This document shows positions 10,396 through 60,274 of a stretch of DNA of 64,000 bases, one piece after another. The DNA lies in the NCBI RefSeq assembly GCF_000013405.1, contig NC_007759.1, positions 1,055,001 through 1,119,000 of the forward strand, in the 5' to 3' direction. The notes beneath the pieces were generated by a model, which was not told the origin of the DNA, did not search any database, and saw nothing but the letters and a program-made list of their open reading frames with translations. A program made the translations under genes and the position numbers. The first letter of the stretch is position 1. Each line of letters starts with the position of its first letter. The DNA is from Syntrophus aciditrophicus SB. Lineage in GTDB: Bacteria; Desulfobacterota; Syntrophia; Syntrophales; Syntrophaceae.

Positions 10396-10947
10396 TCACT
10401 TCATTCGCTGCTTTCCCAAAACCCCGCCGGAAACAATAAAAGCCATCGCTTTAGAGCTTTCTATATTCAGAGGGCTAACCCTGTCCGACGGAAATATCAA
10501 TACCTGACCGGCAAAATTATACGACTGCGGCAGGTAAACCGCGACGTGTTCTGACAGGGACAACATACTCAGGTCTTCCCTTGTAATAAATCCCACTACT
10601 TTAGGTCCACCTGATATAATTTCTACGATGGCCGGCTTATCAAAACTTTTCTTCTCGCCGGCTAATGCATGTGCAAAGTCTTTAATGGCTGCGTACAACA
10701 ATTTGACCACGGGCAATCTGATAAAAATCCGGTCTATGAGGGCAAACAATTTATTCCCAAAATAATTTGAAGCCAAAAAACCGATCAGTGTAATAAATGC
10801 AACTGTCATAGCAGAACCCAGGCCGGGAATTGGAAGATTCAATAGACCATCGAACGTTCTGACAGCCCAAACAATTATCGTAACGGTCAAAGCTGCCGGC
10901 ACAAAAACCAATAGACCTTTTATAAAATAACCTAATAAATTCTTCAC
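10396..10947 (-). CDS. DUF502 family membrane protein
   Basis: 183 aa. The family has two N-terminal membrane helices (YFIKGLLVFVPAALTVTIIV and GLGSAMTVAFITLIGFLAS) followed by a conserved cytoplasmic part (RIPVVKLLYAAIKDFAHAL-like and VVGFITREDL), as in plant LAZ1/COV-like and bacterial DUF502 proteins of unknown function. The start is GTG, placed directly after the stop of the upstream selenoprotein candidate (zero spacing), with GGAGAG inside that gene as ribosome site, so the two genes are translationally coupled. The role is unknown; the pairing suggests a membrane-redox function (inference). Confidence 0.85.
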   Translation of the reverse strand: MKNLLGYFIKGLLVFVPAALTVTIIVWAVRTFDGLLNLPIPGLGSAMTVAFITLIGFLASNYFGNKLFALIDRIFIRLPVVKLLYAAIKDFAHALAGEKKSFDKPAIVEIISGGPKVVGFITREDLSMLSLSEHVAVYLPQSYNFAGQVLIFPSDRVSPLNIESSKAMAFIVSGGVLGKQRMK

Positions 10948-11217
10948 TTACCGCTCTCCGTTTAATATGACGAAAATACGACTTTCTTCCGCTTTGTCCT
11001 TATCAGTTACGATGCCAACTGGCACAAGCTCTTTTTCAAACAAAAAATTCGTTGAGCTTCTAACAAAATGATAGGGCTCCGCTTCTTTCGAATCTGTCGT
11101 GAAGATTTGCAGTTCCAGCCTGTCATCGTACTTTTCCTTCATCTCCTCAGCTACGCCTATAGCCTTTCTGCAGGTCGGTCAAGGATTCCCACCATGAAAT
11201 ACAAGTAACTCTGCCAT
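10948..11217 (-). CDS. candidate selenoprotein, thioredoxin-like, 89 aa (Sec13)
   Basis: An in-frame TGA at 11179-11181 lies between an ATG with a strong ribosome site (AAGGAGGTT, 11217) and a 76-codon continuation. Read through, the N-terminus is MAELLVFHGGNPUPTCRKAI, that is a beta strand then U-x-x-C at the position where thioredoxin-fold proteins carry CxxC, followed by an amphipathic helix and a second strand (LELQIFTTDS). The C-terminal half (VPVGIVTDKDKAEESRIFVIL) completes a small alpha/beta domain. A hairpin suited to a bacterial SECIS follows the TGA. The host has selD and a Sec-type FdhA in this same window, so UGA can be decoded. A nonsense mutation is the alternative, but a strong start site, a perfect UxxC and the coupled DUF502 gene argue against it. 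No other thioredoxin gene is near. Confidence 0.75.
11145..11181 (-). promoter_or_regulatory. putative SECIS hairpin of the Trx-like selenoprotein
   Basis: Starting at the TGA, CCT-G-CAG pairs with CTG-AGG (one bulged G), leaving a 17-base loop that contains further G-rich sequence. The distance from the TGA (4 bases to the stem) is short but in the range seen for bacterial SECIS elements. Structure judged by eye only. Confidence 0.45.
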
Positions 11218-11394
11218 GTTAACCTCCTTACGGTTTCATATTCATTATTGTTTCAATAGAAAACACTCATTTTTTCATATAATAATTACTTTGAAAGCAC
11301 AATAATGATAACGCATAGTAATTCTGACTCTTTATGATAATGAGAATTTGTGAACTACAGGCAGCAATACTCAAAGTTAATCAATACCATCCTT

Positions 11395-11509
11395 AAAAAC
11401 ATCTCAGAAGCAGTAATTTTCTCACCTCTAAATTGATACCGTTTCCCCCTCAATCTTAACCATTGCCGATGACTTTTCTGTTGTCTGATCAACTTGATTA
11501 CCGCAAAGT
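11395..11509. repeat. diverged dispersed repeat, copy B
   Basis: It aligns by eye with 3263-3363 over about 90 bases with several indels. Adjacent sequence differs, so the unit is short. Its nature is unknown. Confidence 0.4.
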
Positions 11510-12621
11510 CCTGCCAACAAAAGCCAGAGCGTCTTCTCAATGTCGGAAGCGGCCGGCCTATAGCCGGATAACAATGACAAAGGATAGCAAATATCATAAC
11601 GACATGCCGACAGGATTGATGACTGGCCGGGTAGAGGCTGGGTGATTGCCGCCATGAAGACCGTATTTAAGCGATCTGTGAGAAGAACTGATCGTTTGGT
11701 CAAAACGGCATCATTTTGAGGGGGTGTGGATAAGGCAGCATGAAAGACATCGTGAGAATGAAAGGTTTGATGCGCTGGCGCGTGCTATTGGCGAGTTGGA
11801 TAGACTTGATTTTTTCGGCTGTGAAGCTGTGAAGAAAAAGTCCGGGATGTTATGGTGTGGTTGAAGGCGGAGAGGATGCATTAAGATTGGTTATAAAAAA
11901 CCAACCCAAATTATTTTTGCACTTCGTTTTCCGCGCCAACCTCCCGGCATGACTGAATATTGGCTGGGGTTTTTCGCCTTTGCATTAAAAGGTGCAGCCG
12001 TGAGGTACGCAGAGAAAGTTAATCTGTCACGAAGGGCAAATTAGGGTTCTCACCCACGGCTGCATCACAGCTATACCGTGTCGGACAGTATTTTTCAACA
12101 AATAAGTTACATATACAGGAAAAGATGTGATGTTCTGGCGCGGGCAGCTATATGGCGAAAAAAGTATGCTTGAGAGCGCTGTACAGGGGGTAAAGTCGGG
12201 GTTACTGTCAATTCGGGTCTTGTTCACGATAATTTGTTGAGCAACGCTGATTTGATTACAATTTCGTAAATGCGCTGCGCTCCTTTCACCGGGGAAAGGG
12301 TTCACTGGGTGTATGTTCTCAAGTTCCTGCGCATACCCCCGGATATAAACCAACACGTACTTTTTCTTCTTCGAGTTTAACCATTGGCCTACAATCGACC
12401 GGATCGGCAGTTGCCACAGCATATCCAGTCGGTTCAATAAGCGGTTTCTTAGAAGATACGATAAGAATCGGGCCGAGAAAAGATGTTTTCCACGTCCTGT
12501 TCAGATAAACAGCTCAATTCCGCTTAATCCCATATCTGCCTATGCCAGTTTGCAGATGGAATATTTCCCGTAACTAATCAGGGTTGCTTTACTCTTTAAA
12601 TGCGGCATTATATAGGATTGA

Positions 12622-12644
12622 GATTGCCTGTTATATAGGCAATC
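12622..12644. repeat. perfect 8-bp inverted repeat
   Basis: GATTGCCT, a 7-base loop, then AGGCAATC. There is no T tract, so it is not a classic terminator. It lies in an otherwise empty AT-rich region and its role is unknown. Confidence 0.4.
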
Positions 12645-12949
12645 AGGTAAATCTCTATTAATTTTTCCTGTTTCGTCATTCCTCTCCACAGAAATCAGTG
12701 AAGTTATAAACAAGACCTGTTGATATAGTTCCCTAATATATTGAATTCTTATAATGTTCTTTATCAACACTCTCTTCGTGGCAGTTATCAAAATGTTTTT
12801 TCCTAAGCTCAGAATCCGACTTGAGAAATATGTACGGATAATTCATGTTGACTCAGAAAGTTTGGCAGAGAGGAAATTTGCCGCATGAGAGGCGAGTTCG
12901 TGTATGAACTATTTCATCTTGTGTTCTTATGGGTCAATGAATGTTATGA

Positions 12950-13160
12950 ATTACTCCCCAGTGTGCTGGGGTAAAATGGGAGGAGGGAATCTGTGTTTCA
13001 TCTAATGCCCATGAGCATGGTTTGTAGAGTAGATCCTCCTCCCACCTGCTTTGTTCTGTAACTCGAACGGTACCAGAAACCTTCTCAAATGGGAATGAGT
13101 TTGCACTTACAAGATTGATTCGAACGAAGCGCTTTTACTGAAGATCATATTCATTGTTTA
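12950..13160 (+). ncRNA. possible IS110 bridge RNA in the left end
   Basis: The non-coding stretch just before the IS110 transposase is rich in hairpins: CCCCAG-TGTG-CTGGGG at 12956-12971, then a perfect 10-bp stem TGGGAGGAGG (12977-12986) with CCTCCTCCCA (13035-13044) enclosing a 48-base internal loop. IS110-group elements are known to encode a structured bridge RNA in this position, with loops that pair to target and donor DNA. I cannot assign the pairing loops without the element ends. Confidence 0.4.
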
Positions 13161-13176
13161 AGAGATGTGGCTTATT

Positions 13177-31521: not shown

Positions 31522-32574
31522 CTATTCCACGATAATCCGGCCGGCCGGAGAGGAAAGGACTTCGCCGACAATGGACGCTTCCCGCACGCCGGCTGCGTGC
31601 AGTCTGCCCAGGCAGGGTTCCGCCTGGTCGGCGGCCAGCGCAAAGAGCAGTCCTCCGGAAGTCTGAGGATCGAAAAGAATATCAAAACGCCATTCGGGAC
31701 AGTCGGGATGGACATCGATCAAAGGCATGCGGAAGTCCCGATTCCGATAAAGTCCCGCGGGCAGAATTCCCATTTCCGCCAGTTCCCGGATTCCCGGGAA
31801 GCAGGGGACCCGGTCGGAGAAGAACCGGATGCCGATTTCCTGTCCTTCGATCATTTCCGCGGCGTGTCCGAGCAGCCCGAAGCCGGTGATATCCGTGCAG
31901 GCATGAACGTCCGGGGTCGTCTGAACAATGTCTCCTGCAATCTTGTTCAGGGTGTTCATGGAACTTATCGAACAGGCGATCAGGGCTTCATCGGCGATCC
32001 CGGCCTTGATGGCCGTGCCGGCAATGCCTGTTCCCAGGGCTTTCGTCAGGATAAGCCGGTCTCCCGGGCGGGCGCCGGAATTGAGCAGGACCTTTTCGGG
32101 ATGGACGGTTCCGGTTACGGAAAGCCCATACTTCAGTTCCGGATCTTCCACACTATGGCCGCCGATCAGCAGTACGCCCGCCTCACGCATCTTGTTCAGC
32201 CCGCCGAGAAGAATCTGCCGAAGAATGGAGATGTTCATTTTCTTGATGGGAAAGCAGACGATGTTCATGGCCGTCAGCGGCGTACCGCCCATGGCGTAGA
32301 CGTCGCTCAGGGCATTGACCACGGCAATCTGGCCGAAGGTATAGGGATCATCCACAATGGGCGTGAAAAAATCCACCGTCTGGATGATGGCGAGATCTTC
32401 CCGGAGTTTGTAAACTCCCGCGTCTTCCCCATGCTCCATCCCAACGATCAGATTGGGGTCAGAGATCAGGGGGAAATCGCATAAGGCTTCTTTCAGGTCT
32501 CCCGGACCGATCTTGCAGGCTCACCCGGCTCCGGAAACGGTTTCAGTCAGGCGTGGTTTCGGGGAATCTTCCAT
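31522..32574 (-). CDS. selD: selenide, water dikinase, itself a selenoprotein (Sec18)
   Basis: 350 aa. It makes selenophosphate from selenide and ATP, the selenium donor for Sec-tRNA. Read through the TGA at 32521-32523, the N-terminus becomes VSGAGUACKIGPGDLKEAL, the known active-site motif of SelD with Sec in place of Cys. The rest is a full enzyme: LIVGMEHGEDAGVYKL, QTVDFFTPIVDDPYTFGQIA, NALSDVYAMGG, LLIGGHSVEDPELKYGLSVT and ACTDITGFGLLGHAAEM. ATG 32574 is used (AGGAG 8 bases upstream). It is divergent from the LysR gene, with 178 bases between them. Confidence 0.95.
32496..32523 (-). promoter_or_regulatory. SECIS element of selD
   Basis: Thirteen bases... after the TGA, GGTC (32508-32505) pairs with GACC (32499-32496) around a CGGGA loop. 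The position, 12 bases from the TGA, and the GGUC type sequence suit a bacterial SECIS. The stem is short and was judged by eye. Confidence 0.55.
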
Positions 32575-47747: not shown

Positions 47748-50447
47748 ATGCAACAGATCAAGCTCAGTATCGACGGGAAGGAGGTTACCGGGACAGCGGG
47801 CCAGACCATACTGGAAATTGCGCTTGCCAGCGGCATTGACATTCCCACCCTGTGTTATCATCCCAAGATCAGCAAGACCGGTGCGTGCCGTCTCTGTCTG
47901 GTTCGGGTCAACAACGGCATGCTGAAGACATCCTGCACCGAACCGGCTATGGAAGGCATGTCGATTATTACGGAAGATGAGGAAATCCGGGGAATCCGCA
48001 AGGGAATCCTGGAACTGCTCCTCTCCGAAGGCGATCACAACTGCCTTTACTGCGACGCCAACGGCGCCTGTGAACTGCAAACCCTGGTAAACCGCTACGG
48101 CATTGAGCCGGTGAGCAGCGATTTTCCCCGTAATGTTCGGGTCATCGATTACGAGTCCAGCGAAGGGCTGAAGCGGAACGAAAACCGCTGTGTCCTCTGT
48201 GGGCGGTGCGTCAAGGCCTGCGGCGAGATTCAGATGTCCAATGTCTGGCAGTTCACGGATCGGGGGAGCCATGCCCATCTGACCTCCGGGATGTTCCAGA
48301 CCATCGGCGATTCCAGTTGCGTGAAATGCGGGACCTGCGTGCAGCTTTGTCCCACCGGCGCCCTGACCTTTCAGACGGTGCTCGGCAGGGGGCAGAACTG
48401 GGAGCTGGAAAAGGAATCAAGCATCTGCATTTACTGCGGCGTGGGTTGCAAGATCGATTTCTGCAAGAACAAGGCCGGTCAGCTTGTCAAGGCCCTCGGC
48501 CATGACGACGGTCCCAACAACGGCCATCTCTGCGTCAAGGGACGGTTCGGGTTCGATTTCGTCCAGAGCCCCAAGAGACTGTCCAAACCCCTCATCCGGA
48601 AGAACGGGCAGCTCGAGGAAGCGAGCTGGGATGAAGCCCTGGACCTGGTTGCCTCCAGATTCAAGGAAATCAAGGAGAAAAGCGGGCCGGACGCCCTGGC
48701 GGCCCTTTCTTCCGCTAAATGCACCAACGAAGATAATTACCTCATGCAGAAATTCATGCGCGCGGCGATCGGCACCAACAATGTGGATCACTGCGCCCGG
48801 CTCTGACACAGCTCCACCGTCGCCGGTCTGGCGGCAGTGTTCGGCTCCGGAGCCATGACGAATTCCATTCGGGAAGTTCCCGTCAGTGAAGGCTATCTCC
48901 TGATCGGAACCAATACGACGGACAATCATCCCGTGATCGGGTCCATGATCAAGGCCCAGGTCGTCAACAAAGGAAAGAAACTGATCGTGGCGGATCCCCG
49001 CAGGATCGAACTGGCCAAATACGCGGACTATTTCTTCCAGATCAAGCCGGGGACAAACATCGCCATTCTCAACGGATTCATGCATGTCCTTGTTAAGGAA
49101 GGTCTTTACGACAGGAAATACGTTGCTGAGCGGTGCGAAGGATTCGATGAACTCGCAAAGACCCTGGAAAAATACACGCCTGAATATGTCGCGGAAATCT
49201 GCGGTCTGGAAAACGGGGAAGACATTCCCAAAGCCGCCCGCCTGATGGCCGCCTGCAAGCCCTTCGCGCTCTACTATGCCATGGGGATCACCCAGTTCAT
49301 TTCCGGCGTGAACGGCGTCAAATCCACAGCCAACCTGCAGATGCTCATGGGCAACCTGGGGATACCCGGCGGCGGCGTCAATCCGCTGCGCGGTCAGAAC
49401 AATGTCCAGGGCGCCTGCGACATGGGGGCGCTCAATGCCGTTTATCCCGCTTACCAGACTGTTGCCAGCGAAGAGAACAAGGCGAAGTTCGAGAAGGCCT
49501 GGGGCGCCTCCGGCCTCTCGATGAAACCGGGACTGACCGTGGTGGAAATGTTCAACGCGGCCATCGCCGGCCAGTTGAAGGCCGCTTATGTGATGGGGGA
49601 AAATCCTGTTGTTTCCGATCCCAATCAGCATCATATCATTGAAGGCCTGAATGCCTTGGAGTTTCTGGTCGTTCAGGACATCGTTCTCACGGAAACGGCT
49701 CAGTATGCCGATGTGGTCCTCCCTGCCTATGCCTTCCTGGAAAAAGAAGGAACGGCAACGAATACCGAACGACGCGTCCAGCCCATGCACAAGGTGGTTG
49801 CCCCGTGGGGCGAAGCCAGGGACGACTGGTGGATTATCATGCAGATTGCCAATCGGATGGGCATGAACTGGAATTACGGGAAAGCAGAGGATATCTTCGA
49901 AGAAATTCGAACGGTCACACCCTCTTATGCGGGAATCACTTACGACCGCATCGAGAAGGAACTGATTCAGTGGCCCTGCCCCACGGAAGACCATCCGGGC
50001 ACGCAGGTCCTCCACAAGGATAAATTCAGCCGGGGACTCGGCCTGCTAACGGCCATAGACTATACCCCCCCGGCGGAGGAAACGGATTCGGAATATCCGC
50101 TCATTCTGACAACCGGCCGTCTGCTGGAGCATTTCCATACGGGAACCATGTCCCGGAACTCCCGGATTCTCGATGAGATCGTTCCGGAAGGGTACGTTGA
50201 ACTGAATCCGAACGAGGCTTCAAACTACAATATCGCCGATGGCGAGGTCATCTCCGTATCCACGAGGCGCGGCAGCATCCGCATCAAGGCGAAAATATCG
50301 GAAAAGCCGAAAGCCGGCGTGGTCTTTATGCCCTTCCATTTCTTTGAGACCTGCGCGAATGTCCTGACGATTGACGCGCTGGATCCGGTCTGCAAGATCC
50401 CCGAATATAAGGTCTGTTCTTGCAAAATCGAAAAAATTTACCTGTAA
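47748..50447 (+). CDS. fdhA: formate dehydrogenase alpha subunit, selenoprotein (Sec353), NuoG-like N-terminus
   Basis: 899 aa with an in-frame TGA (48804-48806) read as Sec. Domain order: NuoG-type 2Fe-2S (about 1-78; TLCYHPKISKTGACRLCLVR), His/Cys 4Fe-4S (GDHNCLYCDANGACELQTL), two ferredoxin 4Fe-4S (ENRCVLCGRCVKACGEIQ and SSCVKCGTCVQLCPTGALTF), then the molybdo/tungsto-bis-pterin part with its own 4Fe-4S (SICIYCGVGCKIDFCKNKAG) and the Sec in NVDHCARLUHSSTVAGLA, and the Moldco-binding C-terminal barrel (EYPLILTTGRLLEHFHTGTM). It oxidises formate or reduces CO2. Cytoplasmic; no Tat signal. nuoEF follows 13 bases later. The TGA lies in a position where relatives have Sec or Cys, so it is not a nonsense mutation. 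Confidence 0.97.
48804..48837 (+). promoter_or_regulatory. SECIS element of fdhA
   Basis: Twelve bases after the TGA, a 6-bp stem GTCGCC/GGCGGC (48819-48835) carries the loop GGTCT. The E. coli fdhF SECIS has the same GGUCU loop that SelB binds. This is the clearest SECIS of the three. Confidence 0.85.
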
Positions 50448-59051: not shown

Positions 59052-60274
59052 GTACCACGTAACTTCTATAAATTCGGATAAAGACGTTTCAGCTTGATCC
59101 GAGCGTCTGAGGTAGTAAATTGCCAATCAATTATTTTGGAGCTGTTGTTTCGGTCTCTTTCCCATGCATCCACTTCGGCCTGCATGGTTTCCATGTCGGC
59201 GATCCGTCGATCAAGGCATTGACCATTCAGAACGCTGAGTTCAATTTCTGCCATGTTGAGCCAGCTTCCATGCTTCGGCGTATAATGGATGTCAAGCCGT
59301 TCCGCCAGGCGTCTGGCCTCCTTGGGCTCAAATGTTTCATAGAGTGAGGCGATATTGTGCGTATTCAAATTGTCCATAACCAGTCGCACTTTGATTGCGT
59401 CAGGATAGCGTTCATCAAGCATCTGTTTGATCTGCAACGCCCAATCCTTCCTGGTGCGGCGTTCCGTCACCGCCACATGTCTTTTGCCCGCCAACGGTTC
59501 CACTTCCATGAATATTTCTGCGACGCCGTTTCTGACGTATTCGTCGTCAACGCGCACCGGTTGTCCCGGTTTGCACGGTATCGGCTCACGGACTTCTCCG
59601 ATCATTTGCTTGCAAGACTCGTCCATGCATACCACCGGATAATCAGCATCATATGGCAGATGGTAGACTTCCAAAAGATCCTCCATCGCGGCTACAAATG
59701 CTGCGCTTCCTTTCGGCGGGATTTTCCAGTACTTGCTGAGGTGAGGTCTAAGTTCGTTTTTTTTAAAATCCGCTGCACAGTCATATGCGATATGGATGGA
59801 GCGATGTTCAGCTCGACAACCTTATCGGCAAGAAGTCTGACTGTCCATCGTTGGTGTCCCTCGGGAGCCTCTGAGCAAGCCAAGGCGATCAGCCTTGCTT
59901 CAAATGCACCGTCAAACAAGATTTCTCTTGGCGGTTTTTCCCGTGGTTTGCGCTCCATCGCAGATTCAAGGCCATCCGTTACAAACCGCTTTTTTAAATG
60001 TTCAATCGTGCGGCTTGTTATTCCAAGCGCCTTTGCAATGTCGGCAACATTCCATGCCGGCCCATCAATTCCGGCGTCACAAAGCAATAAAGCCCGGGCA
60101 TGTATAACTCTTCTCGCGTGTGTTTTTCCACGTCGTGTTAATGCCTCCAATTCTTTACGCTCATCCTGGGTCAATGTTACTCGATATCTTAGTGACATGG
60201 CGACCTCCTTTATCATGGTGTCACCAGTGTATCACACTTTATACAAAAGCGAACTATAATATGTTACGTGGTAC
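59052..60274 (-). mobile_element. IS630-family insertion sequence, copy 2
   Basis: Same 1223-bp element as copy 1, same orientation, TA at both borders (59050-59051 and 60275-60276) and CTAG as rebuilt target. It sits directly behind the T tract of the tRNA-Arg terminator. It differs from copy 1 at 60160 and 60191 only, as far as I can see. Confidence 0.95.
59066..60198 (-). CDS. IS630 family transposase, copy 2 (-1 frameshift product)
   Basis: As in copy 1: N-terminal frame from ATG 60198, eight-A run at 59757-59764, and catalytic -1 frame to 59066. The catalytic frame is identical to copy 1. Two amino-acid differences in the first frame (Pro/Leu at the second residue after the Ser and Asp/Glu in TQDERKE) distinguish it. 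Both copies should be functional. Confidence 0.88.

Follow-up and report, generated by a model that had tools for sequence, protein, structure and literature searches.

The tsoX locus

The window analysed here, a stretch of 64,000 nucleotides from Syntrophus aciditrophicus SB, carries on its minus strand a gene of 89 codons, tsoX (10948..11217), whose 13th codon is an in-frame TGA (11179..11181). Read through TGA 11181-11179 as selenocysteine (Sec, U), the frame (11217-10951) begins MAELLVFHGGNP-U-PTC and stays open for 76 further codons up to a TAA stop at 10950-10948, so that the interrupted frame of the original prediction, which had left the coding strand unstated, is borne out by the read-through translation. 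The product of 89 residues is MAELLVFHGGNPUPTCRKAIGVAEEMKEKYDDRLELQIFTTDSKEAEPYHFVRSSTNFLFEKELVPVGIVTDKDKAEESRIFVILNGER. Its ATG (11217-11215) is preceded by AAGGAGGTTAAC (11229-11218), in which the Shine-Dalgarno-like AAGGAGGTT (11221..11229) places AAGGAGG five bases 5' of the start, at the ribosome site that had been claimed; GGAG also lies at most 16 nt 5' of the start in 18 of 22 homologous tsoX loci. A program-made list of open reading frames gives just 64 residues from ATG 11142 at tsoX, which is an annotation lesson: because of a single TGA, only a 64-residue ORF is seen where there is a gene for 89 residues. The TAA is followed directly by the GTG start of a gene for a DUF502 membrane protein of 183 residues (10396..10947, minus strand; PF04367, 96.6 bits).

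In the genome searched (G000; one contig of 3,179,300 bases), tRNA-Sec (77.4 bits), SelB (373.6 bits) and SelA (615.3 bits) were each found above cut-off, as they were in 5/14, 2/14 and 1/14 controls, respectively. The window itself holds selD and fdhA, as claimed, each with its own in-frame TGA. The part of selD after its TGA (31522..32439, minus strand; TGA in AGUACK) matches TIGR00476 with 344.9 bits, and that of fdhA (48837..50447, plus strand; TGA in CARLUHSS) matches TIGR01591 with 657.9 bits, just under the cut-off of 666.25 for a scanned part that begins at model position 141. Rfam at gathering scores found just one tRNA in the whole window. Syntrophus aciditrophicus is credited with 19 selenoproteins in a 2006 table (PMC1794560), two entries of which have names from thiol redox chemistry ('Prx-like thiol:disulfide oxidoreductase' and 'thiol:disulfide interchange protein'); a match of either to tsoX is not evident.

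Assignment to the TsoX family

The product matches the NCBIfam model NF045809, "HSGNPxU motif (seleno)protein TsoX", with 101.5 bits (E 2.3e-29; cut-off 52), aligning residues 3-77 to model positions 2-76 of 82, and the next-best model reaches 18.5 bits. Even without the residues before the TGA the match is above cut-off, at 84.5 bits, and the model matched none of the 14 control genomes; no tsoX match was found in plasmids. Judged by this post-TGA match and by homologues with a TGA at the same place, the tsoX frame is not open by chance. A 2026 review (PMC13188914) includes TsoX among UxxC selenoproteins, with credit to Haft and Tolstoy 2025, and gives Tso as 'three selenoprotein operon'. The family is known because of the NF045809 match and this naming, and the claim of a new selenoprotein family is unsupported. 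The literature searches on TsoX yielded nothing relevant beyond that review, and a term search within PMC12013277 gave no match.

The literal signature HSGNPxU, a label from the family name rather than a curated criterion, is absent from the window copy, which reads HGGNPU, one residue short; Sec followed by xxC after an H-x-G-N-P block is present (HGGNP-U-PTC). Other members above cut-off also deviate from the label (HTGSKGU in L025, HTGNPAU in L018 and HSGDPNU in L027), and hence its literal letters are not required. The model is of type 'equivalog_domain', a hint that NCBI may already be aware of fused TsoX forms. Taken as a whole, the window gene very probably encodes a genuine member of the TsoX family, a thioredoxin-like protein with selenium that is easy to overlook.

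Conservation of the in-frame TGA

NF045809 scores above cut-off in 21 of 395 genomes of the phylum, 20 of which have exactly one in-frame TGA in tsoX, and in 12 of 155 genomes of the window's order, all 12 with the TGA; a class-level search gave a tally identical to that of the order-level search. With three genomes common to both sets, 29 of the 30 distinct genomes retain the in-frame TGA. It is also present in all 22 tsoX loci taken from genome contigs (partly the same contigs as in the phylum and order sets), one of which, L050, has an additional second stop that is not TGA. The homologues do not begin downstream of the TGA, the outcome that was to refute the original prediction: the HxGNP block before it is conserved.

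No Cys form of TsoX was seen among the above-cut-off genomes of phylum and order, where the sole non-TGA form has Leu. This copy, in G345 (L024/L048, G345:C179), has TTA at the Sec position and a hairpin that can still pair; it may have lost Sec recently, or the assembly may be wrong there. Cys at the TsoX Sec site, by position, was met in 12 of the 13 matches below cut-off, all 12 being CxxC thioredoxin-family proteins. The 13th (L090, G039:C11:45083-45199) is a stop-free piece like a broken tsoX, lying ~1.1 kb upstream of an intact one.

The SECIS-like hairpin

A hairpin resembling a bacterial SECIS element (bSECIS), GGCUAU-AGGC-GUAGCU (11149..11164, minus strand), follows the TGA. Many homologues have the loop AGGU; the hairpin in general reads GGCUAU-loop-GUAGCC, the last base being U in the window. 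The bacterial SECIS model, as set out in PMC13188914, has an upper stem of 4-16 bp, a loop of 3-9 nt with G in its first two positions, 16-37 nt from UGA to loop, and a minimum free energy (MFE) at or below -7.5 kcal/mol. With 6 pairs, the loop AGGC and a spacing of 20 nt, the window hairpin has this geometry.

Conservation was assessed in 43 loci, reduced to 38 by dropping five repeats (37 with UGA and the Leu copy). All six pairs are possible in 33 of the 38, against a mean of 4.5 and a maximum of 12 in 2000 trials of a null that replaces codons synonymously, weighted by each locus's codon usage, and that overstates significance because the loci are related. Counted over all loci, 221 pairs were observed vs 177.2 (sd 4.1) under the same null. 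The hairpin codons are strongly skewed, with Ile as ATA in 29 of 30 loci (background 0.16), Val as GTA in 28 of 36 (0.14) and Ala as GCT in 29 of 37 (0.15), and the codons 3' of the hairpin are less uniform. In a covariation test on 20 hand-chosen sequences, none of 500 shuffles reached the observed pairing (97.5% of cells), the 9 cells with two-sided changes or the covariation score (0.318 vs 0.165). By contrast, only 2 pairs show a two-sided change, a number that chance also gives (170/500 shuffles reach it), two of the six pairs never vary, and shifting the partner strand lowers pairing to 20-51%. On this comparative evidence the hairpin 3' of the tsoX TGA, put forward originally as a possible SECIS, is real.

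In the window copy it is weaker. The foot pair is G-U, and the best 48-nt fold containing the hairpin has an MFE of -8.6 kcal/mol vs -9.6 for a competing alternative fold. The hairpin has a probability of 0.01-0.27 in stretches of 33-48 nt and of 0.84-0.99 in an isolated 22 nt; four homologues folded likewise give 0.83 or more. Given the G-U foot and the competing fold, read-through in the window copy could therefore be inefficient.

Predicted fold and proposed redox cycle

An AlphaFold2 model from 22 sequences (pLDDT 81.6, pTM 0.70) runs strand, helix 14-29, strand, helix, two strands, helices, and includes the beta-alpha-beta-alpha-beta-beta-alpha core of the thioredoxin fold with the redox dyad before the first helix. 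The 50 entries listed by VIA-align are mostly thioredoxins, with fold-switched KaiB among them, and a Thermus thioredoxin aligns best (Z 10.8; 83 residues at 2.1 A). Foldseek returned no match at E 0.001 or better (best E 1.8e-3), none of the Pfam thioredoxin models matched the product significantly, and a sequence profile matched a solved thioredoxin with no better than E 0.0028. Sec13 stands directly before helix 1 in the model, in line with the claim that UxxC sits at the thioredoxin active-site position. Among homologues Cys16 is invariant and Pro66 nearly so, the latter plausibly being the cis-proline of the thioredoxin fold.

A natural in-frame fusion of TsoX with thioredoxin reductase (TrxR) is encoded in G198 (L047:6597-7811, G198:C195), with one in-frame TGA, NF045809 matching at 1-80 and TIGR01292 at 99-397 (384 bits; cut-off 343.45). 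Separate thioredoxin reductase genes lie near tsoX in L065 and L052. The fusion points to TrxR as electron donor. Based on the fold, the motif, the fusion and the nearby TrxR genes, we therefore propose the following cycle. The hairpin that immediately follows the UGA would direct SelB to insert Sec at codon 13, as conservation suggests. At the beginning of helix 1, the selenolate of Sec13 would attack an oxidised substrate to give a mixed selenenylsulfide, which Cys16 would resolve; an NADPH thioredoxin reductase would most likely re-reduce the Sec-Cys pair left oxidised.

Genomic neighbourhood

Neighbour proteins were searched by tblastn (E 1e-6) in 45 loci representing 42 distinct contigs, with flanks of 155 bp to 10 kb, many of them short; L041, L042 and L010 duplicate L069, L062 and L058. 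TsoR matches occur in 13 tsoX loci, of which the one 2.9 kb downstream in L059 could be a different ArsR; TsoA matches occur in 12, TsoC in 4 and TsoB in 3. A methyltransferase lies near tsoX in 8 distinct loci, among them L062, L044, L045 and L098 of the window's order, a CoA-disulfide-reductase-like protein in 7 (in L062 over 9 kb off), thioredoxin reductase in 5 (one the fusion, two partial) and a hybrid cluster protein in 2. The same search found the phosphate transporter and DUF47 of the window near tsoX in 0 loci. Elsewhere in the phylum, tsoX is often part of a Tso neighbourhood with an ArsR/SmtB-type regulator.

By whole-genome search 8 of 27 genomes have a TsoA match, which is above cut-off in 6, and TsoA was found in none of the six tsoX genomes of the window's order tested (G000 included); tblastn found none in the flanks of the other six tsoX genomes of the order. 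TsoB exceeds its cut-off in 1 of 24 genomes, the best score in G000 being 138.9 bits vs a cut-off of 805. With no TsoA in the order's tested genomes or flanks, and TsoB in 1/24, tsoX of this order therefore appears to lie outside the Tso operon, and the window copy is, as far as these profile scores indicate, a TsoX without that operon (TsoA absent and TsoB below cut-off in G000). In the ~1.9 kb upstream of tsoX (window 11218-13164) there is no recognisable ORF, and tblastn of the neighbour proteins found no TsoR or TsoA remnant.

Weak TsoB matches, seen in all 24 genomes and in 13/14 controls, were left uncounted, as by their matched positions they seem to be background from DsbD, rhodanese and thioredoxin. 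In G198, a truncated TsoB-like piece that contains two TGA (274.3 bits) was also set aside as under cut-off. In two genomes of the window's order, those of L055 (424-2067) and L044 (found there solely by tblastn), the hybrid cluster (Prismane) gene lies upstream of tsoX, a hint of nitrosative or thiol stress.

The junction with DUF502

The touching stop and start codons of the original prediction were found as described, with TAA directly followed by GTG and adjacent without overlap; the functional partnership read into them is unsupported. DUF502 was found near tsoX in 0 of 42 distinct other contigs (tblastn, E 1e-6, in the fetched flanks). The junction was found only in this genome. DUF502 is encoded in 13 of 23 other tsoX genomes searched, on other contigs in 12 and 1.3 Mb away in G339. 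The papers retrieved for DUF502 were, judged by title, on other subjects.

A genome of the same genus, G001, has a DUF502 gene that is 88.5% identical, with the same GTG start, a similar GGAGAG leader and no tsoX match, and the DNA similarity to the window stops about nine bases before the GTG. Starting at about residue 76, the window tsoX has a tail that matches nothing in the alignment of the family, and the touching stop lies within it. A simple single-base frameshift was considered as the cause, and a hypothetical tail in the +1 frame was scored against a model of the other 22 members; the near-equal scores, 108.5 vs 108.3 bits, favour neither tail. From the unmatched tail and the loss of similarity at the DUF502 leader, we infer that the touching stop is best read as a rearrangement junction; tsoX would here be an orphan whose 3' end came to abut the DUF502 leader through an apparent local rearrangement.

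An IS110-type transposase lies 2 kb away. Near-identical two-ORF units, transposase-like by eye, stand at 117-1267 and 59066-60216 of the window. Downstream of the G001 DUF502 gene there are small pieces similar to the phosphate transporter of the window (L040:3651-3771, G001:C46), as if that transporter had been lost there.

Discussion

Here, we propose that tsoX encodes a thioredoxin-fold selenoprotein working through a Sec13/Cys16 cycle, an orphan that abuts DUF502 by rearrangement, and we hold this explanation as a whole to be highly probable. The core of the original prediction, a small selenoprotein in a Sec-decoding host, is well supported at the level of sequence by the conserved TGA, the hairpin and the presence of tRNA-Sec, SelA, SelB and SelD.

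What if the TGA were an ordinary stop, ending a 12-residue peptide, with the protein beginning at ATG 11142? The 64-residue ORF in the program-made list would suit such an arrangement, yet it would leave the conservation in homologues of the region before the TGA, of the TGA and of the following Cys without a reason, as well as the synonymous constraint around the hairpin; moreover, GAGGAG abuts ATG 11142 without spacing, whereas AAGGAGG stands five bases before ATG 11217. We regard this as extremely unlikely. The state of the window copy makes a better case for decay, in which an ancestral selenoprotein gene is now an early pseudogene whose UGA mostly stops translation. The residue between NP and Sec, present in the other 22 aligned sequences, is deleted (CCT TCC TGA in the Smithella record L055 vs CCT TGA in the window), the conserved S9 is G, an extra residue (FV) has been gained, the C-terminal tail is unlike the family, and a competing RNA fold opposes the hairpin. 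In addition, tsoX is absent from 3/3 other genomes of the genus, and the terminal branch of the window copy (0.327) is among the six longest of 38. Against this, the copy differs at 2 of 26 conserved columns, which puts it in the mid-range of the 38 sequences (a leave-one-out count that is blind to indels and the tail), its comparison with L055 gives dN 0.13 vs dS 0.91 (dN/dS about 0.15), and frame, start site, UGA and hairpin spacing are all intact. Decay is thus unlikely, and we take the window tsoX to be a gene that is divergent but apparently working.

A further reading makes TsoX and DUF502 a functional pair, translationally coupled, in which the redox protein serves the membrane protein. 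It draws on the TAA that runs directly into the GTG, and is very improbable in view of the 42 contigs whose fetched flanks have no DUF502, the 13 of 23 tsoX genomes that encode DUF502 always elsewhere, and the same-genus DUF502 gene that keeps its GTG and a similar leader without any tsoX. Preferring the orphan selenoprotein at a rearrangement junction, we also considered a bolder view of its history, which we think quite unlikely: TsoX would be a portable selenol thioredoxin beyond the Tso operon, using TrxR, freed from TsoA in this order and relinked to hybrid cluster protein, methyltransferase and CoA-disulfide-reductase-like flavoproteins, and in this species the new junction would let tsoX govern the translation of DUF502, an incipient redox pair.

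In light of these findings, the surprise of a new Sec-protein/DUF502 system falls away, and what is gained is support for a further selenoprotein of this genome, whose SECIS is backed by codon choice and covariation. The TsoX-TrxR fusion also opens a way to test what a little-studied selenoprotein family does. As far as our literature search goes (Haft and Tolstoy 2025 being outside its scope), three things are new here: evidence for the SECIS at the level of codons, the clue that the fusion gives to the electron donor, and the finding that tsoX is an orphan in the order.

Several known systems offer a comparison. The predicted fold resembles thioredoxin of Thermus thermophilus (PDB 1v98; Z 10.8), with the dyad at the N-terminus of the model's first helix, and differs from it in having Sec for the attacking Cys, an identity of 18% and a Pfam thioredoxin match that is not significant. 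AhpF-like flavoproteins have an N-terminal redox domain followed by the flavoprotein part. The G198 fusion shares this domain order, but scores 257.5 bits vs an AhpF cut-off of 502.9, and the window gene is unfused. SaoT (NF040730) and the HUIPC motif thioredoxin-like (seleno)protein (NF047660), also named as thioredoxin-like (seleno)proteins, are only weakly similar to the window product (16.3 bits vs a cut-off of 65, and 16.7 vs 105, respectively). The closest system is TsoX of NF045809 itself, with which the window gene shares a score well above cut-off, a UxxC motif with UGA-encoded Sec and a small single domain, and from which it departs in HGGNP-U vs HSGNPxU, in its altered tail and in a genome without TsoA and a full TsoB.
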